Shown here: one piece after another, positions 3,701 to 46,930 of the stretch
How positions within the stretch are numbered: the first letter of the stretch is position 1
How the letters are laid out: every line of letters begins with the position of its first letter
From: Myxococcota bacterium
GTDB lineage: Bacteria > Myxococcota > XYA12-FULL-58-9 > JALHOP01
Direction: 5' to 3'
Assembly: GCA_022842935.1 (NCBI GenBank)
Contig: JALHOP010000002.1
Location: forward strand, 124,001 to 188,000
Length of the DNA stretch: 64,000 bases
Notes under the pieces: model-generated
What the model was told of the DNA's origin: nothing
The model's input: the letters and a program-made list of their open reading frames with translations, nothing else
The model's database searches: none
Program-made: the position numbers and the translations under genes

Positions 3701-4501
3701 TCAGCGCGCTCGCACCGCGATCATTGCCTGCACGGCGGCCGTTGCGGCCGCGTCGAGCTGGTCTTGGGCTCGTCTCACCACTCGGTCCAGCTCGCCACCA
3801 CCGCCGTCGCGCGCGAAGTGTCTGCTGCGCGCGGCGAGAGCCATCACTTCGTGAGCATTGAGATGGTCGAGCGTGGTGCTGGGTCGAGGCAAAGAAGGAA
3901 TTCTGTACAGGAGTGCCTCGACTGCCTGCGCAGCCCTCCGTGCGGTGTCGTCACAAGCGCCCTCGACGGGGGGCGCGAACAGGAGAGCCTGTGTCACGAG
4001 CTCGGCTCCCGCTTCGTGACCGCAGTAGATGTTCGCCTCCTCGAGAGCAGCGATCGCCGCATAACGCATGGTCGCGAGGCTCGTTGGGTCATCCGCCAAA
4101 GCGGCATTGATAGCGCTATCACGGATCTCCTCTGCCCTCACTCGCGACACGTGCGAGGAGCTCGGTCGCGCCGGGAGAGCGCAGCGCACAGCGCCCCATA
4201 GAGCGAGGGCCCCTGCAACGCCTTCGCCGATGCCGGTAAGCACACCGACGAGCACACCTGCGGCTATGGGGACGGCATGCGGCGCGCCCTGACGCAGAAG
4301 CTCGAGGAGACTCGGCTGGACTGTTGCGACCCTTTGGCGGGCTTTCACGCGATAGTCGTAAGCCCTCACCACGAGGTCGGCGAAGCGATGCGCGGGCTCG
4401 GGAACCTCGACCGCGAGTCCGACGCGGACTGTTTGTTCGAGCGAACGTCGCTCGACAGGGCCTGGCGTCGCCGTGGCGACCGGAACGACCGTGTAGCTCA
4501 T
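3701..4501 (-). CDS. Unknown membrane-hairpin plus helical protein
   Basis: I do not recognise this 266-residue protein. Residues 1-70 are hydrophilic, residues about 75-110 form a hydrophobic hairpin (HAVPIAAGVLVGVLTGIGE...), and the rest is Ala/Arg-rich and predicted helical. It is the last gene of a three-gene operon: its ATG overlaps the stop of the upstream gene in an ATGA (4498-4501), implying translational coupling. Its layout (N-terminal tail, two hydrophobic helices, helical C-terminal domain) is shared with the adjacent 4498-5430 gene and with 48621-49412, suggesting a paralogous family. No catalytic motif is apparent. Confidence 0.6.
   Translation of the reverse strand: MSYTVVPVATATPGPVERRSLEQTVRVGLAVEVPEPAHRFADLVVRAYDYRVKARQRVATVQPSLLELLRQGAPHAVPIAAGVLVGVLTGIGEGVAGALALWGAVRCALPARPSSSHVSRVRAEEIRDSAINAALADDPTSLATMRYAAIAALEEANIYCGHEAGAELVTQALLFAPPVEGACDDTARRAAQAVEALLYRIPSLPRPSTTLDHLNAHEVMALAARSRHFARDGGGGELDRVVRRAQDQLDAAATAAVQAMIAVRAR

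Positions 4502-15240: not shown

Positions 15241-15244
<4 letters not shown>
13268..15244 (-). CDS. nadE: Glutamine-dependent NAD+ synthetase
   Basis: 658-residue two-domain enzyme that amidates nicotinate adenine dinucleotide to NAD+ using ammonia from glutamine. The N-terminal nitrilase-like glutaminase domain shows the Glu-Lys-Cys triad: Glu44 (CLPELC), Lys111 (FVAKHH) and Cys162 (ICEDAW). The C-terminal synthetase has the ATP pyrophosphatase loop SLSGGADST at about residue 343. Length matches the glutamine-dependent class. Its ATG overlaps the pncB stop as ATGA (15241-15244), so the two are translationally coupled. With pncB and pncA this leaves only NadD (adenylyltransferase) missing from the window for nicotinamide-to-NAD salvage. 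Confidence 0.95.
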
Positions 15245-36487: not shown

Positions 36488-39400
36488 TCACGACAATAGG
36501 CACAACCGTCCGAGAATCAGCATCAGAGCGAAGAGCACGAGAGCGATAGCGAGCGCCGCAAGCCACGCCTCCTTGCGAACCCAAGCGATAACGAAGAGGA
36601 CGAGCGCGAGCACCAAGAGGACCCATCCCAAGCAGCGCTGGTGCTTGGACTGCTTACGGCACATCGGGTTCTGCGGCGTGTACGGCGAGCCGTCTTCACC
36701 ATCCGGTGTGCCGTCGTTGTCGCTATCGGTATCGACGACGTTGTCGACGCCGTCTTGATCGGCGTCGCCGGGTGGCTCCTTGCCATCGATGATGCCGTCG
36801 CCATCACTGTCCGGGTCGAGGAAGTTCGGGATGTCGTCGCCGTCGGCGTCGCCCTGCACTTCGTCGTCGTCGAGGAGCCCATCGTCGTCTTGGTCGCGGT
36901 CCTCCGGGAGCTGCACCTTGATGTCGATGTCGTCGGTCTCGTCCGGCCCCGAGCACTCGCCGCCGTCGTAGATGGCGGTCGCCGTCCAGTTGCCACCGGT
37001 GACGACGATGTATTGATCGTCGTAACACCCGAATTCGTCGGTCATGACCTCGTGATAGACAGGGTTCCCCGACGGGTCCTTGTAGCGGATGGTGATCTTC
37101 TCGTTGGGTCGCGGCGGGATCGTGCAGCCCTTCACACTCACGATCTGGCAGGCGTCCGGTTTGCGGTCACCTCCGAGCTGCTCGACCATCTTTCGATATT
37201 CTTGAACGGCGCGCGCGTAGGTCTTGCTCGACGGATCGACGCCCGTGCCGGTGGGCTTGCCTTGGCGGCATGGCGTCATGTGCTCGTCGATGGTGAGGGT
37301 CGTGCGGTCCCGTAGGTTGGCGTCGACCTGGACTCCGCCTAAGCGGATGAGCGTGTCACCACGTGGCACCCAACCCGTCACGTGCATGCTGTGGCGGGTA
37401 CACGAGGGAGCGCTCTGCGGCGGCTGGAACGTAAGTTTGCCGATGCCAACTTCGTCAATGGCGAGGAGTTTGCGCGACGGGGTGAGTGACTTCGACCAAT
37501 CCATTGGCATGCCGTCGACACGGAAATAGACGAGCGTCGGTTGCGGCTGTGGATTTTTGACTTGAAACTCGAAGGTGCTGACGTCGTACGGACTCGAGTG
37601 GTTGACATATTCGACGGAAAAATTGTGCTGAGCCGTGTTGTTCCCGGAGTTGGTGTCGTTCGGGATGTCTTGCAGCTCGAGCTTCACACAGTTGTGCGGA
37701 TCCTCCGCCTCGGCGGGCTCCCAAACCACGTAGACGTCTTTGACCTCGTCGGGCCCGAGCTCGTCGATGAAGACGATCTTGTAGAGGTCGAAAGAGATGC
37801 TGTCGCCCACCGTATGGTACGGCGCCGACAGCAAGAAGCGTACGCGAACATCATAGGCTGTTGCGGGTCCGTGATTGCGGACGCGCGCATAGATGCGGTT
37901 TTCTTCGCCACCGTAAGGCTGTTCTTCGCCGGGCGTGCCCGGGTCCTCGTACGGCTGGTGATCAATCCAGACGTCCGGGTTCTGATAGTAAGGGTCGTGT
38001 GGCTCGATGTAGACGTCGTAGTCGTCAGCCGGCGGCGCGTAGTCGATGCGCACCTTGTAGCCCCCGTCGTTGGCGAGCTTCGACACCACCTTGGCGGTGA
38101 GCCCGGTGCCGCCGGGGCTCTCCTGTTGGTTCACGCCCAATGCAGCGTCGCTCACGACGTCGGTGTTCTGCGTGTGATCGCGAACGATGACAGGCGCTTG
38201 GCCCTGCGGGATGAGCTTGTTGACGTAGTACATGAGTACGCCGTCCTGCGGCACGGTGGCGTCAGCGTTTCCGAGCGACGGGCTACGGGACTCGAGCCAG
38301 TAGAAGTGCGTCTCGTCCTCGAAGGTCGTGGCGCCTTTGGTAAGACCCACCGCGACAGCCCCGTATTGTCCGCTTTCGAGGATACTCTGATAGGCGACGT
38401 CGACCTGTTGATTGCTGATGGGATCATCGTAGGGCGGCCGCGCAATGAAGAAGATCTTGCCGCCACTGCTCGTCACCCAGGTTGCGAGCTGCTTTGACCA
38501 CACCAGCGGGTGCGCGCCCTCGAAGGGCTTCGCCATGTTGTCCCACTCGTCGGCGATGTGTGGGATGGGAATGTCGACGTTGTCGTAGGTGTAGAGGTCC
38601 CAGAGACCGAACTGGTGGCTCATCCCGTGCGCGAACAATGGCGTCGCGTTGCCCGGGCCTTGCACCGACACCGAAAGATAGATGGTCTTGCCGTTGAGCT
38701 CGTACGGCCAGTTCTTCGTAGTCGCGAAATCGATGGTGAAGTTGGGGTTGTTGACGACGATGATGACGCGGTCGATGTCGTCTTCGGGATCGTCGGTCTC
38801 CCCATCGAGCACGGTCGGCTCGGCGGCGAGGAGCTTCTCCAAAACCTCGGTCGACATGTCGATGAGCAGGGTCTCTTCGCCGGTCGAGTAGGTGCTCTCG
38901 GGATCGTCGAGAGAAACCGGTCCGCGATAGAGGGGCTTTACGTGCGTGAGCCCATAGCTGGTTTGCTCGACCCAGGCGGCGAGCTCATCGACACGCTCTT
39001 GCACCACGGTCATGTCGACATTGCCATTGACGTCCGGGAAGAGCGCCGCGACCACGAGCGTATCCTGGTCGCCAATCGGGAATGGTGCGCGCGTCACGAC
39101 GACGCGCCGCAACGCAACGTTGTTGCTTCCGCGAACCTCGTCGAGGCCGGAAGCCGGCGCGGTTGGGTCGAAGACGTTGATGGAGCGCACGAGGACGTTG
39201 AGCGTCCCCAGCTGATCGACCGTGCTCTCGGGTGCCGGTGGCCGCCAGACGATCGGCCCGATGACGATGTTGCCGCCTGGGGCGACTGCGGGAACGGCGA
39301 GCTGGTTGCCGGCGCTGTTGATCTGAGGCGTGGTGTAGCTCGTGTACATGCCTGCGGACGACCAATCGGCCGGGAAGACGAGAGGCGAGCCTGGGTCGGC

Positions 39401-40573
39401 CCAGTAGACCTGAAGTATAGCGTTGGTCGCGAGGTGTGCACCGCGATTGCGGACGGCAACATAGATGTAGTTGTTCTTATCGAAACGCGGCTGCTCGAAA
39501 GCGTACGCTGTCAGGCCGTTCTGCTGTGCCTGCGCGACGTCGACGTCCGGCTGGTGCCGAACCAGGATGTCAGGAGACGACAAGATATAGCTCGGGTCGG
39601 TCGGCTGGGTGCCGTCATCGAAGCCGTGATCACGCACGAAGAAGTCGAACGGCTGTGAAGCGTCGGGCCCCAGAAAGGCAAGAAGCTGCGCGTTGTTCGA
39701 GTCGATGACGAAGATGTGGTTGTCGGCGTCGACCTCGACCTTCTGGGGGCTGCCGACGAGCGGCTTGGTACCAAGCGTCGCGTAGCGCGTGCCGTTCTGG
39801 CGCATGACCACGACGCGGTGGTTATCCGTATCGGCGACGACGAGCTTACCGTCCGCGAGCACGGCAACGTCACGTGGTGAGCGAAACAGACCGTCGCCGG
39901 TGCCGTACGCACCGAACGACGTGTTCGCTCCAGCGGTCGGGATCTTGACGATACGGTGGTGGTCGGTGTCGGCGAGGTAAATGGTGCCGTCGGCGGCGAG
40001 GTCGAGCCCGTAAGGATTGCCCCACGACGCGTCTGTCTTGTGCACTGACCACGACGTGTCTGCCGGCCCATCGGCTACGAGGATGCGCTTGTTGCCGGAG
40101 TCGAGCAGGTAAACCTTGCCGTCGGGCCCGGTGGCGATGTCGCGGGGCCGTTTGATGTTCACGCCGACGACGCTGTTGCGGGTGCTCGACGCAAACGTCG
40201 CGTCGTAGACGTATTGGGAACCGTTCCAGCGAAAGAGCTGCACCTCGTTACCGAAGGTGTCGACGACGTAGACGTTACCGTCGGCATCGCCCGCGATGCC
40301 TTGCGGCTCGTTCAATGCTTCTGGCGCGCTGCGGTTCGCGACGAAGCCGAAGTGGTCCCAGTTCGGTGCCGCGGTGAGGGCGGCGATGCTCGCGTACTTG
40401 ACGCGGTGGTTGCCGGTCTCGACCACCAGGACGCGTCCGTTTTCAGCGTCGATGCCGAGACCCGCGGGTGCCTTGAAGCCGTCGGTGAGCACGAAGGGAG
40501 CACCGTATTCAGTCGTCGCTTGAACAGACAGTGGCCAACAAAGCGCCGCGATGATGGCCCAAGAGTTCCTCAT
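36488..40573 (-). CDS. 1361-residue NHL/CARDB-like/TSP3 surface protein with degenerate M6-like domain
   Basis: Exported protein with signal MRNSWAIIAALCWPLSVQA. Residues about 30-310 are NHL beta-propeller repeats (GNVYVVDTFGNEV, GTIYLADTDHHRIVKI, GKLVVADTDNHRVVVM). Two CARDB-like units follow, each opening with a D-x-x-x-x-HQP motif (PDILVRHQP; PDVWIDHQP) and YVAVRNRG or YARVRNHG. Between them, around 500-830, is an M6/immune-inhibitor-A-like peptidase domain with AHGMSHQFGLWDLY at 648-661: the HExxH glutamate is Gly, so it is probably inactive. About 80 residues of Asp-rich thrombospondin-3 repeats precede a Cys and two transmembrane helices at the C-terminus, an anchor. Last gene of the four-gene coupled operon. 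Confidence 0.8.
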   Translation of the reverse strand: MRNSWAIIAALCWPLSVQATTEYGAPFVLTDGFKAPAGLGIDAENGRVLVVETGNHRVKYASIAALTAAPNWDHFGFVANRSAPEALNEPQGIAGDADGNVYVVDTFGNEVQLFRWNGSQYVYDATFASSTRNSVVGVNIKRPRDIATGPDGKVYLLDSGNKRILVADGPADTSWSVHKTDASWGNPYGLDLAADGTIYLADTDHHRIVKIPTAGANTSFGAYGTGDGLFRSPRDVAVLADGKLVVADTDNHRVVVMRQNGTRYATLGTKPLVGSPQKVEVDADNHIFVIDSNNAQLLAFLGPDASQPFDFFVRDHGFDDGTQPTDPSYILSSPDILVRHQPDVDVAQAQQNGLTAYAFEQPRFDKNNYIYVAVRNRGAHLATNAILQVYWADPGSPLVFPADWSSAGMYTSYTTPQINSAGNQLAVPAVAPGGNIVIGPIVWRPPAPESTVDQLGTLNVLVRSINVFDPTAPASGLDEVRGSNNVALRRVVVTRAPFPIGDQDTLVVAALFPDVNGNVDMTVVQERVDELAAWVEQTSYGLTHVKPLYRGPVSLDDPESTYSTGEETLLIDMSTEVLEKLLAAEPTVLDGETDDPEDDIDRVIIVVNNPNFTIDFATTKNWPYELNGKTIYLSVSVQGPGNATPLFAHGMSHQFGLWDLYTYDNVDIPIPHIADEWDNMAKPFEGAHPLVWSKQLATWVTSSGGKIFFIARPPYDDPISNQQVDVAYQSILESGQYGAVAVGLTKGATTFEDETHFYWLESRSPSLGNADATVPQDGVLMYYVNKLIPQGQAPVIVRDHTQNTDVVSDAALGVNQQESPGGTGLTAKVVSKLANDGGYKVRIDYAPPADDYDVYIEPHDPYYQNPDVWIDHQPYEDPGTPGEEQPYGGEENRIYARVRNHGPATAYDVRVRFLLSAPYHTVGDSISFDLYKIVFIDELGPDEVKDVYVVWEPAEAEDPHNCVKLELQDIPNDTNSGNNTAQHNFSVEYVNHSSPYDVSTFEFQVKNPQPQPTLVYFRVDGMPMDWSKSLTPSRKLLAIDEVGIGKLTFQPPQSAPSCTRHSMHVTGWVPRGDTLIRLGGVQVDANLRDRTTLTIDEHMTPCRQGKPTGTGVDPSSKTYARAVQEYRKMVEQLGGDRKPDACQIVSVKGCTIPPRPNEKITIRYKDPSGNPVYHEVMTDEFGCYDDQYIVVTGGNWTATAIYDGGECSGPDETDDIDIKVQLPEDRDQDDDGLLDDDEVQGDADGDDIPNFLDPDSDGDGIIDGKEPPGDADQDGVDNVVDTDSDNDGTPDGEDGSPYTPQNPMCRKQSKHQRCLGWVLLVLALVLFVIAWVRKEAWLAALAIALVLFALMLILGRLCLLS

Positions 40574-41253
40574 TCGATCACCGAACGCAGCTTTGGCGAC
40601 TGATAGAAGCCGCTATCGCGTTGCTCGAGCAGTGGCGCGAGCTTGGCTCTAACGGCAGCGTCGCGGGGGGTTGCCTCTTTGAAGTACGCAAGAGCGTGCA
40701 ACTGCAGTGCGTAGTTCTCACCTGAGAAACGCGCGAGCAAAGTGTCACGCAGCCGTGCATCGTGTGTCTCGGCCAACGCGCCGATGACGACACCCCGAAC
40801 GGTTTCGACTTGGTCGAGCTGTGCTGCCTTGGCGACGAGCTCCGGGTGGTTATTGCGCGGCAGCGCAGCCGCACGACGCTCGAGGTCTGCGGCGAGGCGG
40901 TCCCGCGAGGTGTTCATACGATTGAACGCGCCCACGAGAGCGTCGCGACCAGCGGTCCCCGCGCACGCGCCGAGAACAAGCGCGGCGTTGCTTGCCTGGC
41001 GGGCGCGCTCCCCGGAGGAGTCTGCGGCAATCCACGCGGGGTCTAGGCGCTGTTGTAGAGGCGCGAGATACGTCGCGCAGTCGGCGCGAACCTTGCCGTA
41101 GAGTGCCATCACTTCGTTACCGGACATGGGGGTCAGCCCGTGGCTCGCTCGAGTGAGCATCGCCACGGCCTGCTCTGGCGTCATTGACTGAGCTCCTGCG
41201 CGGCTAGCCGCAATAGCAAACAGCAAGACAACGACAACGGCGCGCATGGTCAT
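40570..41253 (-). CDS. Secreted helical protein, operon gene 3
   Basis: 227-residue exported protein with signal MTMRAVVVVLLFAIAASRAGAQ. The mature part is all-helical; repeated units in the second half (ETVRGVVIGALAETHDARLR, DTLLARFSGENYALQLHALA) suggest HEAT-like repeats. Start ATG 41253 overlaps the upstream stop (ATGA), and its own TGA overlaps the ATG of the 1361-residue gene (40570-40573). It has no lipobox and no catalytic motif. Its placement between two giant surface proteins suggests a scaffold, chaperone or inhibitor for them. Not recognised as a family. Confidence 0.65.
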   Translation of the reverse strand: MTMRAVVVVLLFAIAASRAGAQSMTPEQAVAMLTRASHGLTPMSGNEVMALYGKVRADCATYLAPLQQRLDPAWIAADSSGERARQASNAALVLGACAGTAGRDALVGAFNRMNTSRDRLAADLERRAAALPRNNHPELVAKAAQLDQVETVRGVVIGALAETHDARLRDTLLARFSGENYALQLHALAYFKEATPRDAAVRAKLAPLLEQRDSGFYQSPKLRSVIE

Positions 41254-44200
41254 GGGTTCTTCATCAGGCTGTTGCCCGCGGCGGGCAGGTTGCCGAGTGG
41301 CCGCACTGTGCGCGCGGTGGTCTCGGTGGCTTGGGTGATACGGCGATATCTCGACACCGAATCGTCGGTGAACGTACTTAGCGCCGGATAGAAAACGGTT
41401 TGCGGGTTCGCCGCGTCTACGCCGTTGAGCAAGAGGTGCCCCAGCTCGTGCGCGAGCGTCCGGTTGGCGATGTTGAGTTGCGGAACGAGAACGGTGAAGG
41501 AGACTTCGTTGTGAACGACGGTCTGGAAGAACGGCGGTATAGCAACAGCGTTGGCGCCGGGCATGGGGGCGGCGAAGAAGACCTCGACGATGTCGTTCGT
41601 CATGCCGGCGCTGAACGCGTTGAAGACGGCAGCGACGTCGCCGTTTGCGGCCAAGATGTTGTTCATCTGACCGTCGGCGATGATGTCCACGCCGCCGACT
41701 TGCGGGGCGTCTTGAACGATCGTGGCGCCAACCTTCACGATGCGCAGGCATGCCTGCGCCCAAGCAATGTCCGCTCGGGTGACCTGGTCGTTGGCTTGCG
41801 CTTCGCTAACCACCGGAGTGCGACCGTTGACCACGCCGGCGGCGTCGCCGGCCCGCATCGTCACGCCACCATGGCTCAGATCGATGTAGGGCTCGCTGCG
41901 TTCACCGACATCATGTACGCCGTCCGCGTCGGCATCGGTAAAGTCGAAGACGGCGTTGCCGGCACCGATGTTGGCAGTACCGGCGTTACCGTCGTGGTCG
42001 AAGCCGATGTCCTGGAAGGGCTCGTTGAAGACATGCAGTCGCACCTCGACGCGCCGTCGTGACTCGGCTCCGCGCTGACAAACGGGAACGTCGATGACCT
42101 TCGCGGATGCGGCGCCGGCCGGCATGTAGCTCGTACGCACTGCGCCGTTGATGTCGACACGGTGGGTTCGGTCGTTGTTTGCATCATCCGCGATAACGCT
42201 GCCAAAGCCATCGTCGGCGGCGAAGTCGTCATCCGCCGTTGGGATGTCGTTTGTAGTGAGCAGCTGTGAGCGAGAGACGAAAACCCCGGTGTTGGCGCCC
42301 GTCTCCATGAGTAGTGTCTGAACGGCGACGTCGTTTGTCGCATTGGCCTGGTCGAGCGTTCCGAGCTGCACGAAACGTGTTTCGAAGGCCGCGGGATCGG
42401 TGTTGGCGCCAGCGTCCGTCACCCGGATGTAGAAGCGCGATGGATCTTGCTCGATGAAGTTCGCCGGGTCGGCATTGTTGATGACGTTGAAGGCGGCATC
42501 GTAGGAGTTGTCCCAGCGACCGATGCGCGTGAAGAACGCGGGGGTGTCAGCGGCCGTGATGGCATGATCATTGTTGCTGTCGCGCACGGTCTCCACTGCA
42601 ACGATGTTCAAGGCGAGTGGTACCTCCGTCGCGAGCACCCCGTTGGTCTCGAGTTGGAGGCGCAGCTCCGCAGCGCCAGCGCCAACCCCTTCCAGGAAGA
42701 CCTGCGTTGGCACAATTTCAGTAGAGAGGTCGTAGCTCCGGGGTAGTGCAATCTCGGTGCTCTTGTTGACGTCTTCGTAGAGGCGGAACGTCGCGACGCT
42801 CGCAGACAAAACGACGGAACCGACGAGGTCGAACGGCTCCAGCACGATGTCAACCTGCACGATGTCGTTCTCTTGGGCTGGTGCGGGCGTCTGCGTGTTG
42901 TCCGCGGCGTCGTTCCAGTCATCGTCGTCGATGTTTGCGAAGACAGGCATGCCCTGCGGTGGCGCCGGACTGCCGCTGGGTGTCGCCGCCAAACTGTAGA
43001 CAGTGAAGGCGTGCGGTGCGCTCACCCCGAGACTCGCGCCTTGGCGTTTCGCCTCGACGACGATCGTGTAGTAACCGGGTTCAACGAGGACGCCGAAGTC
43101 GTGGCCGTTCCAGTTGATGGTCCCCGAATCAGCCCCAGGCAGGATGTCGCTTGCGCGTTCGGTGTTGGCGGCGTCATAGACGTACCAATCGATCTCGTCG
43201 ATCTCGGTCACGCCCGAAATGCTGAAGTCGATGTCGAGGGTATCGGTGCCGTCATCTAGGTCCTGATGGCGCACCAGGATGTCGCTCGTGTCCGCGATAG
43301 AGACATCCGCTACAGCGACGCTAATCGCATTGAGCTCAATCGCGCTGTACGGCGAAGTGCTGAGGCTCGCGTCAAGCAGCGACACCCTGACGTGGTAGTG
43401 GCCGGGTAACGGCCGGAAGTTACCGGTGCCAGCGCCGTTCCAGTTGAAGACGTTGTAGGCACCTTGGTCGTTCGCCAAGACGTTGAAGTCGTAGTCGACG
43501 TAGAACGGGCTCTGATCGTCGTCTTCGTGAAAGATCGCGAGCTCGGTGAAGGCACCGGCGTTGAACTCTGGGTGGTTATAGATGGTGGCGTCGAGGTGGT
43601 AGAGGATGGTCACGTCGGTCTGGTCGGTGAACTCAACGACAGCCGGCTGGGCGGTCGTGGGTGCGTCGATGCACAACGGGTTGGGGCAATTGCGGATGAC
43701 CACGAAGGTGTTCGCAGAGCCGAGCAACTGAGGGTTGTCATCGTCGCCAACCGTGAGCTGGACGTCCCAAACGCCCTGGCACTCGAGCGGTACGACGGCA
43801 CCGGCGGCGAACAGGTTGAACGCTGAAAGCGACGGTCCCGCGGGTGCGCTGCAGAACGCGGGTGGCGTGAAGGTCCAACTGTAGCTCTGAATGCCGAGGC
43901 CATTGGCGAGCGGCTGATCGAGGAGCGTGTTATCGAGGTCGAAGCTCCAAACGCCGGAGAGAGCGACGTCTTGGGTCACGGCGCCGTTCAACGTCATGTA
44001 CGCCATTGGGGGGCTTACGACGGCGGTCGGTGGGGTGTTGGGGTCGATGATCATGACGCTCTGAAGCGCCGTCGCTTCGTTGTCTTCGCCGTCCCACACG
44101 GTCACTTCGAAAGTGAACTGGCCGCTCGCGCCGAGGGAGGCGAAGCTGCTGAACGCGAGCGTCGACGACGAGCCGTTGATCCCAAGCACCTCGTCAACGC

Positions 44201-45851
44201 GACCGAGCGGCTGAATGCCGTAGAGATCAGAAGGCACGTCGACGAGCGACCATTGATAGGTGGTGATGGCGGGTGAGATGTCTTTCACTGGCGGATCGCT
44301 CGAGCTGTGACAGCGGCCAGAGACGCCGACGCATGGCGAGTCGGGGTCTTCGGAGTCCGAGGCATCGAGCGTGAGCGGGAAGTCGGCGACTGAAAGAGTG
44401 GGAGGGTCGCCGGCCAAAGTGGCTCCTCCAGCGCTCACGACCACGACCGCTGTCGGTTGGCCATCGACGAGGACGGTGATGTCCTCGCTGGTAACGCCAG
44501 GCGGGTCCGCGTTCTCGCCTTCGTTGTCGGTGGCGGTGAGACGAAAGATCCAGGTGCCAGCCATGCCGACCGTCAAAGCGGGCAAGTAGAGGGAGGCCTC
44601 TTCCGAAAATCCACTCTGCGGACCGATGCCCGCGGAGTCGGGTGACTGAATGATGTCCCAGACGAAGGTGAGCGCGCCTCCGTCGTCGTCGTCGAGCACG
44701 CTGGTGGCGACATCGATGGAGTCACCGACGTCGATCTCGGTCTCGCCGACGAAGTCGATGCGCGGCGGCAAGTTGAGGACCTTGAAGGTGAAGGTGGCGG
44801 TGTCCTCGCCCGGCGGGTCGGCGTTGGGGCCTTCGTTGTCGGTGGCGGTCACGCGCACTTGCCAGTTGCCGATGTCGTCTTCGTCTGTTGTGTAGGTCGG
44901 AAAGTTCGCCGCGGTTCCGACGTTGTTGGCGGGCGGATGGCTCGACCCTGAAGGGCTCGAGACGATGTCCCAAGAGAACGACAAGTTGCCGCCGTCGGGA
45001 TCGGTCGTGGGCGTGGCGGTGACCTGAATGTCTTCGAGAGCGTCCATCTCGCTGTCGCCGTCGATACTAATTTCGGGCGGAACGTTGGGGACATCGAAGC
45101 TATGGGTCGCGGTGATGCGTTCGCCTTCTTGGTCGTCGAGGTCGAGCTTCACGACCCAGTGACCGATGTTGGCATCGTCGTTCATGGCAAGTGACGGCGA
45201 TGCGCTATTGGCGTTGCTCAACGACACGGCGCCCGACGGCTTGGTGGTGATCGACCAGTAGTAATCGAGCCCAGAGCCGTCGGCGTGGTCGGGGTCTTCG
45301 GCGTTGCCGTCGAAGGTGAGCGTCGTGTTCCAGGCGGGTGTCGGCGCGTGGGTGATGCTCGCGGTCGGAAGTGAGTTGTAGACCTCGATCTGAAACTCCG
45401 AGGGCTCCTCGCTCGGGTAGACCTGGCTTTCCAAGCAGCTGATGCCACAAACGTGGCCGGGATCTGACTGGCAGTAGCTCGGATTGACCTGGTAGCACTG
45501 GCAGACGATATCCCAGGCGCCGAGATCGACGAGCGAGTCCCAGCGCGCCGTGAAGTTGTAGTCGATGAGTCCGTCGCCATTGGTGTCCCACATGGCGCAG
45601 CTCTCGAAGTCCAGCGGATTCGAGGTCAGCTGCTGCGCGTCATTGCTCTGGGGCGAGATGTTGAGATCAGAGGGCGCCCCGCCGAGATACTCGGAGCCGC
45701 AGCTGCAAGCCCACATGAAGTTCACGCCGTTCGTGGCGTAGATGTAGTAGCCCCCCTCCTCTTTGACGAGGTGATAGCCGGTATAGACATCCGCGGAAGC
45801 CGACGAAGGCAAAGCGCAGGCGACCAAGCCAGCGACAAATAGTCTCTTCAT
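41250..45851 (-). CDS. 1533-residue PKD-domain zinc metallopeptidase
   Basis: Exported protein with signal MKRLFVAGLVACALPSSASA. A Cys-rich N-terminal region (CSCGSEY, CAMWDTNGDG, CQCYQ, CGISC) is followed from about residue 165 by five to six PKD/Ig-like domains (repeats of TATDNEGPNADPPGEDTATF type and NTPPTAVV). Residues about 800-1050 contain FlgD-Ig-like segments (NWNGHDFGVLVEPGYYTIVV). Near the C-terminus AHELGHLLLNG (HExxH at residues 1468-1472) is a zinc-metallopeptidase motif; the third ligand is unclear. Catalytic motif at the very end is unusual. Coupled by ATGA to the foldase gene upstream and the helical gene downstream. It shares the motif DILVRHQ with the 1361-residue protein. 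Confidence 0.8.
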   Translation of the reverse strand: MKRLFVAGLVACALPSSASADVYTGYHLVKEEGGYYIYATNGVNFMWACSCGSEYLGGAPSDLNISPQSNDAQQLTSNPLDFESCAMWDTNGDGLIDYNFTARWDSLVDLGAWDIVCQCYQVNPSYCQSDPGHVCGISCLESQVYPSEEPSEFQIEVYNSLPTASITHAPTPAWNTTLTFDGNAEDPDHADGSGLDYYWSITTKPSGAVSLSNANSASPSLAMNDDANIGHWVVKLDLDDQEGERITATHSFDVPNVPPEISIDGDSEMDALEDIQVTATPTTDPDGGNLSFSWDIVSSPSGSSHPPANNVGTAANFPTYTTDEDDIGNWQVRVTATDNEGPNADPPGEDTATFTFKVLNLPPRIDFVGETEIDVGDSIDVATSVLDDDDGGALTFVWDIIQSPDSAGIGPQSGFSEEASLYLPALTVGMAGTWIFRLTATDNEGENADPPGVTSEDITVLVDGQPTAVVVVSAGGATLAGDPPTLSVADFPLTLDASDSEDPDSPCVGVSGRCHSSSDPPVKDISPAITTYQWSLVDVPSDLYGIQPLGRVDEVLGINGSSSTLAFSSFASLGASGQFTFEVTVWDGEDNEATALQSVMIIDPNTPPTAVVSPPMAYMTLNGAVTQDVALSGVWSFDLDNTLLDQPLANGLGIQSYSWTFTPPAFCSAPAGPSLSAFNLFAAGAVVPLECQGVWDVQLTVGDDDNPQLLGSANTFVVIRNCPNPLCIDAPTTAQPAVVEFTDQTDVTILYHLDATIYNHPEFNAGAFTELAIFHEDDDQSPFYVDYDFNVLANDQGAYNVFNWNGAGTGNFRPLPGHYHVRVSLLDASLSTSPYSAIELNAISVAVADVSIADTSDILVRHQDLDDGTDTLDIDFSISGVTEIDEIDWYVYDAANTERASDILPGADSGTINWNGHDFGVLVEPGYYTIVVEAKRQGASLGVSAPHAFTVYSLAATPSGSPAPPQGMPVFANIDDDDWNDAADNTQTPAPAQENDIVQVDIVLEPFDLVGSVVLSASVATFRLYEDVNKSTEIALPRSYDLSTEIVPTQVFLEGVGAGAAELRLQLETNGVLATEVPLALNIVAVETVRDSNNDHAITAADTPAFFTRIGRWDNSYDAAFNVINNADPANFIEQDPSRFYIRVTDAGANTDPAAFETRFVQLGTLDQANATNDVAVQTLLMETGANTGVFVSRSQLLTTNDIPTADDDFAADDGFGSVIADDANNDRTHRVDINGAVRTSYMPAGAASAKVIDVPVCQRGAESRRRVEVRLHVFNEPFQDIGFDHDGNAGTANIGAGNAVFDFTDADADGVHDVGERSEPYIDLSHGGVTMRAGDAAGVVNGRTPVVSEAQANDQVTRADIAWAQACLRIVKVGATIVQDAPQVGGVDIIADGQMNNILAANGDVAAVFNAFSAGMTNDIVEVFFAAPMPGANAVAIPPFFQTVVHNEVSFTVLVPQLNIANRTLAHELGHLLLNGVDAANPQTVFYPALSTFTDDSVSRYRRITQATETTARTVRPLGNLPAAGNSLMKNP

Positions 45852-46930
45852 GGCCGCGCGGCGGGAGCCGAGGGTTTCGCCGAAGGGCTGACGGCGGGCA
45901 GCGTGGCGATCTCGCCAAGCCCCCCATTCGTGCCCTTGTGCAGCGCGAAGTCCTCGGCGTGACGACGCTCGAAGGCGTTGTCGACCGTTGCCTCTTTAAG
46001 CAAAGCGGCGCGCAAGTCCGCGATCGCGGCGCTGCGGCGGCGGGCCCGCAGACTGCGTTCGATCTCGGGGCGGGCGGTTTCGAAGCTGACGTTCACCGCA
46101 GGGTTCAGGCGCACTAGTCTGAGCAAACGCAGACCGTCCGCGCTCTCGACAACGCTGGAGACCTCCCCCGGTTTCAATCCCCGCAGCGCCTTCCACACCG
46201 CCGGGTCCACACTTTTCTCCTCGACCCGTCCCATGTCACCGCCCAGGCGGGCGCGTGGGCTCTTGGAGTAAGTGCGGGCCAACGCCGCGAACGACAGCTT
46301 CGGGTCGCGAGCGAGCTTTGCTACTTCATCCGCTTTAGCGCGCGCGCCGCGGGCGAAAAGAATCTCCTCGGCTGTGAGGTACGCGGGTGTCTGATAGCGC
46401 GCATTGTTGCGGGTGTAGAAGATACGCGCGTGCTCCTCGCTTACGGGCTCATCTTTTACGCCAGCGAGCTTTTCCTCGAGCAACTGCGTCTCGAGGCTGC
46501 GGCGAAGACCAACATCTTGTTGCGGGTAGTTTGCGACGTGCTGTTTGAACTGCTCGGGAGTCTTGAAGGTCGCGGCCAGAGCGGTACGGCGGGCGGTGAC
46601 TTCTTCGGCGGACACGGTCACGCCGCGACGCTTGGCGCCCTGCCTCACGAGCAGCTCATTCACCATATCCCGCGCAATGGCTCGCTTGGTCTCGAGGTAA
46701 GTGGCGCGCGTCGTTAGTCGATGGCCTGTACCGCGCAAGCGCGCGGCGAACAGCAGATTGAAGCGGTCGAGCGGTACCGCTTCTCCGTCGACGGTGGCGA
46801 TGACCTCACGCTCGGGCTCGTCCGCAGCGAGCGGCGTGGGGGGCTCGGCGCCTCGGGGCGTGCAGGCAACTACGACGACCGCGATAGCGCACGCGAGCGA
46901 TGCTCGTTGCGAAATTCGACTGCTTTGCAT
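45848..46930 (-). CDS. SurA/PrsA-like peptidyl-prolyl isomerase lipoprotein
   Basis: 360-residue lipoprotein with signal SLACAIAVVVVACTPRG (lipobox VVAC). It has the SurA-like layout: an N-terminal helical domain (ATVDGEAVPLDRFNLLF then RAIARDMVNELLVRQGAKRR) and a parvulin domain with AEEILFARG, FAALARTYSKSPRARLGGDM and LKPGEVSSVVESADGLRLLR. It folds exported proteins, probably the giant proteins encoded right after it. ATG 46930 has AGGGG 3 nt upstream; its stop overlaps the next ATG by 4 bp. The C-terminal 60 residues are low-complexity. First gene of the four-gene operon; an 8-bp inverted repeat lies upstream at 47028-47051. Confidence 0.82.
   Translation of the reverse strand: MQSSRISQRASLACAIAVVVVACTPRGAEPPTPLAADEPEREVIATVDGEAVPLDRFNLLFAARLRGTGHRLTTRATYLETKRAIARDMVNELLVRQGAKRRGVTVSAEEVTARRTALAATFKTPEQFKQHVANYPQQDVGLRRSLETQLLEEKLAGVKDEPVSEEHARIFYTRNNARYQTPAYLTAEEILFARGARAKADEVAKLARDPKLSFAALARTYSKSPRARLGGDMGRVEEKSVDPAVWKALRGLKPGEVSSVVESADGLRLLRLVRLNPAVNVSFETARPEIERSLRARRRSAAIADLRAALLKEATVDNAFERRHAEDFALHKGTNGGLGEIATLPAVSPSAKPSAPAARP

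Follow-up and report, generated by a model that had tools for sequence, protein, structure and literature searches.

The window, the 64,000-nucleotide stretch of DNA that was analysed, comes from a relative of the myxobacteria. It carries a four-gene operon on the minus strand, the genes of which are joined by three 4-bp ATGA overlaps. Both the coordinates and the letters agree with those given in an earlier note on this DNA. The genes run in descending coordinates, and the features assigned to them are listed below with the basis of each assignment.

45848..46930, minus strand: gene 1, parvulin-type peptidyl-prolyl isomerase (SurA/PrsA-like), 360 aa, probable lipoprotein (VVVAC); Pfam Rotamase, tree
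41250..45851, minus strand: gene 2, exported PKD-scaffold protein, 1533 aa, with a predicted C-terminal zincin module; Pfam, HELGH motif
42897..45851, minus strand: conserved scaffold part of gene 2, residues 1-985 (PKD/K319L/REJ-like repeats, FlgD-Ig-like region); Pfam, tree of residues 165-985
41250..42464, minus strand: exchangeable C-terminal module of type A, residues ~1130-1533 (Ig-like domain and predicted metzincin-like zincin); identities, AF2 and Foldseek
41436..41450, minus strand: HELGH motif at residues 1468-1472, with both H and the E unchanged throughout module types A and B
40570..41253, minus strand: gene 3, partner protein of family a, 227 aa, signal peptide, judged mainly helical from its sequence, proposed as immunity protein or cognate inhibitor; homologues
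36488..40573, minus strand: gene 4, NHL-propeller/CARDB/pseudo-M6/CARDB/TSP3-like protein, 1361 aa; Pfam, TIGR03296, motif comparison
38225..39019, minus strand: putative pseudo-M6 peptidase domain of gene 4, residues 519-783; TIGR03296
38615..38629, minus strand: HGMSH in place of HExxH, residues 649-653; motif comparison
37631..37927, minus strand: CARDB domain of gene 4, residues 883-981; PF07705, Foldseek to 3idu/2kl6
36488..36628, minus strand: two-helix hydrophobic C-terminal anchor of the NHL protein, specific to the window copy; sequence
45848..45851, minus strand: ATGA overlap of foldase and scaffold genes; sequence
41250..41253, minus strand: ATGA overlap of scaffold and partner genes, a junction that recurs in other loci; sequence
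40570..40573, minus strand: ATGA overlap of partner and NHL genes; sequence

Pfam recognizes a Rotamase domain in gene 1, PKD/K319L/REJ repeats in gene 2, and six NHL repeats plus CARDB in gene 4, and gives no domain for gene 3. The signal peptides, the lipobox-like VVVAC of gene 1 and the two-helix hydrophobic C-terminus of gene 4 were read by eye in the window sequence.

Recurrence of the gene neighbourhood

The strict 4-bp coupling of the four genes had been taken in the earlier note to point to a stoichiometric complex. Two further same-strand pairs of open reading frames in the window also overlap by 4 bp (4498-4501 and 15241-15244). Thus, the overlap alone is unremarkable and cannot serve as a sign of stoichiometry. 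What goes beyond chance is the recurrence of the neighbourhood. Among 17 other loci, 11, drawn from three module types, likewise join scaffold and partner by ATGA, and two more do so by TGATG; in this count it is uncertain where the L111 partner starts.

Homologues of the NHL protein, sought by domain search over 195 Myxococcota genomes and a named genome collection, occur at full length in genomes of the Myxococcus group (54-56% identity, with 43-45% for a second group) and in Zobellia amurskyensis of the Bacteroidota (52%). The scaffold gene adjoins every one of the nine full-length genes. Five Myxococcus loci (L105, L107-L110) keep the order of the window, with parvulin, scaffold, small exported partner and NHL gene, and in L116 parvulin, scaffold and partner are accompanied by an NHL protein that is shortened. 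Rearranged or reduced forms of the cassette are found in other Myxococcota and once in the Bacteroidota. L111 and L112 have the order NHL gene, scaffold, small gene and lack the parvulin; L113-L115 have scaffold and small gene without the NHL gene; and in five loci (L118-L121, L140) a parvulin is followed by a scaffold that bears a hydrolase module and then by a lipoprotein. The Zobellia locus (L106) comprises a vWA-PKD scaffold, a small gene and the NHL protein. The earlier note had staked its case on the families occurring together elsewhere; they do so in Myxococcus, and also in Zobellia, where the foldase is missing from the set. It had also treated the four genes as a fixed unit, and here the survey speaks against it, since 8 of 18 loci lack the NHL gene. 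A parvulin lies upstream of the scaffold in 14 of these loci and is absent from three; L113, where the contig ends, is undecidable.

The scaffold profile (A3) matches 12 of 193 Myxococcota genomes, one of 399 Flavobacteriaceae genomes and one of 395 Bacteroidota genomes, the last two being the same Zobellia. The seven further genomes from the order to which the window belongs yielded no scaffold, and a search of plasmids likewise returned none. This scattered distribution, with the absence from the related genomes, suggests horizontal transfer of the cassette. Upstream of the hydrolase-type cassette at L140 (L140:10-4215) lies a gene for a peptidase-like protein that has the motif HEWGH, PKD repeats and an end resembling MYXO-CTERM.

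Enzyme modules and their partner genes

Across the 18 loci, the PKD protein consists of a conserved scaffold of about 985 residues followed by an exchangeable C-terminal enzyme module, of which there are four types. Type A, a HELGH-like zincin, is found in the window and in L111-L115, and type B, a HEVGH zincin, in L105 and L107-L110. Type C, a protein-arginine deiminase (PAD), is confined to the Zobellia locus L106 (PF03068, E 6e-42, 144.5 bits against a cut-off of 25), where, by eye, likenesses of the catalytic D, H/D and C motifs of PADs can be made out in the segments WFQDHMEVGY, VSHVDE and EVHCGTNV. Type D, an alpha/beta hydrolase combining GHSRGG with a beta domain at the C-terminus, occurs in L116, L118-L121 and L140 and gives weak matches to PETases and chlorophyllases. 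The hydrolase cassettes of L118-L121 and L140 have a Cys-rich lipoprotein as partner, with up to two copies in a genome beside a type B cassette. The Zobellia scaffold (L106:3024-8144) begins with a vWA-like region, recognized by eye, and ends in the deiminase.

Identities along the window protein change with position. Residues 160-450 of the scaffold are 47-50% identical to Myxococcus proteins of type B, L105 being the best match (50%). Residues 1130-1290 are 38-50% identical to L111-L115 of type A, and the last ~240 residues (1290-1533) share 32-39% identity with L111-L115 versus 17-21% with L105-L110 of types B and C. In a maximum-likelihood tree of scaffold residues 165-985, the window scaffold joins that of Zobellia, which bears the deiminase module (100/99). 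Scaffolds with type A modules fall in three places in the same tree, and their union in one clade is rejected (p-AU 1.06e-6); module and scaffold therefore have different histories. Because types B, C and D are each limited to one clade of scaffolds or to a single locus, independent exchanges are few, with at least three module changes on a tree that does not indicate the ancestral module type. Exchange of the enzyme part on a retained scaffold is well supported.

The HELGH motif of the window module lies at residues 1468-1472 of gene 2. The metzincin signature (HExxHxxGxxH/D plus a Met-turn) is not reproduced: the window reads HELGHLLLNGVD, in which the consensus Gly is absent and no residue is assigned as third ligand. 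A PDB sequence search with the C-terminal region returned FlgD as the sole match. Among the best Foldseek matches of an AF2 model of the module (11 sequences, pLDDT 64.5) is protein-arginine deiminase 2 (4n22, E 9e-7). To judge by secondary structure, this match most likely arises through the beta-sandwich N and M domains of the deiminase. The others are adamalysin/ADAM metallopeptidases, including ADAM33 (1qua, E 2.5e-3, probability 0.99, TMt 0.43). The resemblances are weak and at the level of domains. As modelled, the window module is a zincin with metzincin-like topology, its likeness to adamalysins being weak (TMt ~0.43). A sequence link between the Ig-like region of the window and the PAD region of Zobellia was sought and rejected (hhalign probability 0.2), although Foldseek does connect the model with the PAD N and M domains.

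The gene directly downstream of the scaffold follows the module type in all 18 loci. Family a accompanies type A (6/6), family b type B (5/5), family c type C (1/1), and families d and e type D (6/6), with the L109 partner assigned by eye. BLAST finds members within a family; between families, hhalign probabilities are below 2 except for d and e (96%). The idea that a, b and c form one distant family has no profile support. Family b and one member of family a give weak HEAT matches. All partner proteins have an export signal that is visible by eye, be it a signal peptide, a membrane anchor or a lipobox.

A phylum-wide profile search with family a recovered the six linked copies, an unlinked copy in genome G113 and, in G010, a marginal partial match. 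The G113 gene (L168:9452-10153) is an intact, stand-alone homologue. No scaffold, parvulin or NHL gene surrounds it, and genome-wide searches of G113 for the C-terminal part of the scaffold and for the NHL protein gave no match. Its dN/dS relative to the L113 partner is ~0.26, and the value for the linked L113 and L114 copies is 0.24. The orphan could reflect recent loss of a scaffold.

The parvulin and the NHL protein

The window parvulin is matched by Pfam Rotamase_2 (E 5e-15) and Rotamase (E 7e-13), scoring 49.9 bits against a curated cut-off of 21.7, and 13 other loci have a homologue in the same position, ahead of the scaffold gene. It resembles SurA/PrsA foldases in its parvulin domain and SurA_N-like region, yet it differs from them in being tied to this scaffold and in standing apart from other parvulins of the same genome. 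In a tree that includes the other parvulins of three genomes, the cassette parvulins separate from the rest with two label changes, compared with a mean of 11.1 after shuffling, and a single clade of cassette parvulins is not rejected (p-AU 0.49). Four other parvulins of the window genome group with their Myxococcus counterparts. These results support the earlier suggestion of a dedicated foldase. Outside the window, the same genome has three tandem parvulin genes (G000:C11:157996-160395), the counterparts of which are clustered in Myxococcus (G157:C1:9807569-9810049).

Gene 4 contains an M6-peptidase-like domain that had previously been overlooked. NCBIfam TIGR03296 is matched over model positions 15-286 of 286 with E values of 2e-5 to 2e-7, and eight of nine homologous segments match, a full-length likeness to M6 (immune inhibitor A-like) peptidases. 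The NHL protein nonetheless departs from these peptidases in two respects: its score is below the curated cut-off (28 bits versus 110.8), and a Gly replaces the catalytic Glu in every member compared. The corresponding motif is HGx[SA]HQ[FL]GLxDL in the window and in all eight homologues, and the window reads HGMSHQFGLWD where active M6 enzymes have HExxHxxGxxD. Because the catalytic Glu is Gly in every copy compared, the domain is probably a pseudoprotease; the idea of an active M6 protease in gene 4 was rejected on the strength of HGMSH. An AF2 model of the region (pLDDT 59) led Foldseek to CARDB alone (3idu/2kl6) and does not show the M6 fold, and a PDB sequence search with the region found no M6 structure. 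The C-terminal anchor described earlier is indeed present in the window copy as two hydrophobic helices, but it is not a conserved feature, being absent in Myxococcus and replaced in Zobellia. The end of the Zobellia protein (L106:9035-13615) gives a weak match to an outer-membrane beta-barrel in place of the helical anchor.

Possible roles of the cassette

Published polymorphic toxins (CdiA/CdiI, Rhs, MafB; Zhang et al. 2012, PMC3482391) offer the closest frame for this arrangement. Exchange of the C-terminus with retention of the N-terminal part is the published hallmark of such toxins, and the toxin classes listed in that survey include HExxH peptidases and AB hydrolases. The cassettes are alike in having a long exported N-terminal part with an exchanged C-terminal enzyme, a small cognate gene directly downstream, a single candidate for an orphan cognate gene, and HExxH peptidases and alpha/beta hydrolases among their modules. 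They differ in the PKD/K319L scaffold, dedicated parvulin and NHL/pseudo-M6 companion, which the available text of the survey does not describe; the terms PKD, NHL, deiminase and isomerase have 0 occurrences in it. The exported state of the partners is a further difference, as is the lack of a known releasing peptidase. Searches with Pfam and NCBIfam found no trafficking or pre-toxin domains (PVC-MPTase, HINT, RHS, FilH and others) and returned PKD, REJ, FlgD-Ig and catalytic domains only; no releasing peptidase of the HINT, PVC or similar type was identified. SitA/SitI of Myxococcus (PMC5562445, PMC8546572) are likewise myxobacterial and combine an N-terminal part, modular C-terminal toxins and cognate immunity. 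However, SitA proteins are lipoproteins that reach other cells through outer-membrane exchange, and their C-termini are nucleases with a cytoplasmic site of action, whereas here the modules are peptidases, deiminases or hydrolases borne by giant PKD proteins. The end of the Zobellia scaffold matches the deiminase domain PF03068 and has catalytic-like motifs of protein-arginine deiminases (PMC8826395), yet here the domain is the C-terminal module of a PKD scaffold; that paper does not mention PKD, Myxococcus or Zobellia. Searches of one literature library on NHL with PKD and Myxococcus, or on M6 with NHL, gave no match, and neither the scaffold nor the NHL protein is known to have a delivery role. 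We found the scaffold described nowhere.

We put at about even the chance that the cassette is a polymorphic-toxin-like secreted enzyme and immunity system with a dedicated foldase. Its own parvulin would then assist folding of the giant Sec-exported PKD scaffold in the periplasm, and the scaffold would display or deliver the C-terminal enzyme module, in the window the putative metzincin-like zincin. The module would reach the envelopes or surroundings of other cells and might be toxic there by acting on envelope proteins or lipids of competitors or prey. The small partner would shield the producer's own envelope from the module, as an immunity protein or inhibitor; since the partners are exported, such protection would be exerted in the envelope. 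The NHL/pseudo-M6 protein would serve to dock or anchor the scaffold, as an optional companion without catalytic activity. A more ambitious version, a new delivery class of polymorphic toxins with a PKD scaffold, its own parvulin, a pseudoprotease docking partner, swappable warheads including a deiminase, and exported immunity proteins that act in the envelope, can be put forward only tentatively. Weighing against the toxin-like reading are the small number of independent exchanges, the single orphan partner, the search for a releasing peptidase that identified none, and modules such as the PAD and the hydrolase, which could as well be ordinary secreted enzymes.

The main rival is a modular secreted hydrolase complex that is no toxin at all, in which digestive or processing enzymes for predation or nutrient release are paired with a cognate subunit, activator or secretion chaperone. 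An obligate cognate subunit predicts the same pattern of co-exchange, the module types are ordinary extracellular enzymes, and most of the organisms are Myxococcota, which are known as lytic predators. This explanation accounts about as well for everything except the orphan partner: an intact family a gene with no detected scaffold in G113 is odd for a subunit. The use of several unrelated partner families for one role is also more typical of immunity proteins. We regard the rival as possible while leaning against it.

The earlier reading, a fixed stoichiometric four-protein surface protease or adhesin complex with a dedicated foldase, now seems unlikely. It is consistent with the identical gene order in five Myxococcus genomes, the constant position of the NHL/pseudo-M6 gene beside the scaffold, and the clustering of the cassette parvulins. 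It fits poorly with the eight loci without the NHL gene and three without the parvulin, with an enzyme that switches from peptidase to deiminase or hydrolase while the scaffold is retained, and with an anchor that is not conserved. That the operon is a mere mobile cluster, held together by co-transfer with no functional coupling, is highly improbable, since its patchy spread (12/193 Myxococcota, 1/399 Flavobacteriaceae, none in the seven other genomes of its order) is outweighed by joint change of module and partner on a constant scaffold, recurring ATGA junctions, an export signal on every partner, and purifying selection on the partner.

If the toxin-like reading is correct, these cassettes would add a scaffold class to the secreted conflict systems known from predatory and social bacteria, with a dedicated foldase tied to a toxin-like giant and a conserved pseudoprotease as companion. 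The deiminase-bearing form would then be a bacterial effector that acts by citrullination. Even if the modules are purely digestive, the exchange of an enzyme along with its partner on a common scaffold lends itself to direct tests.
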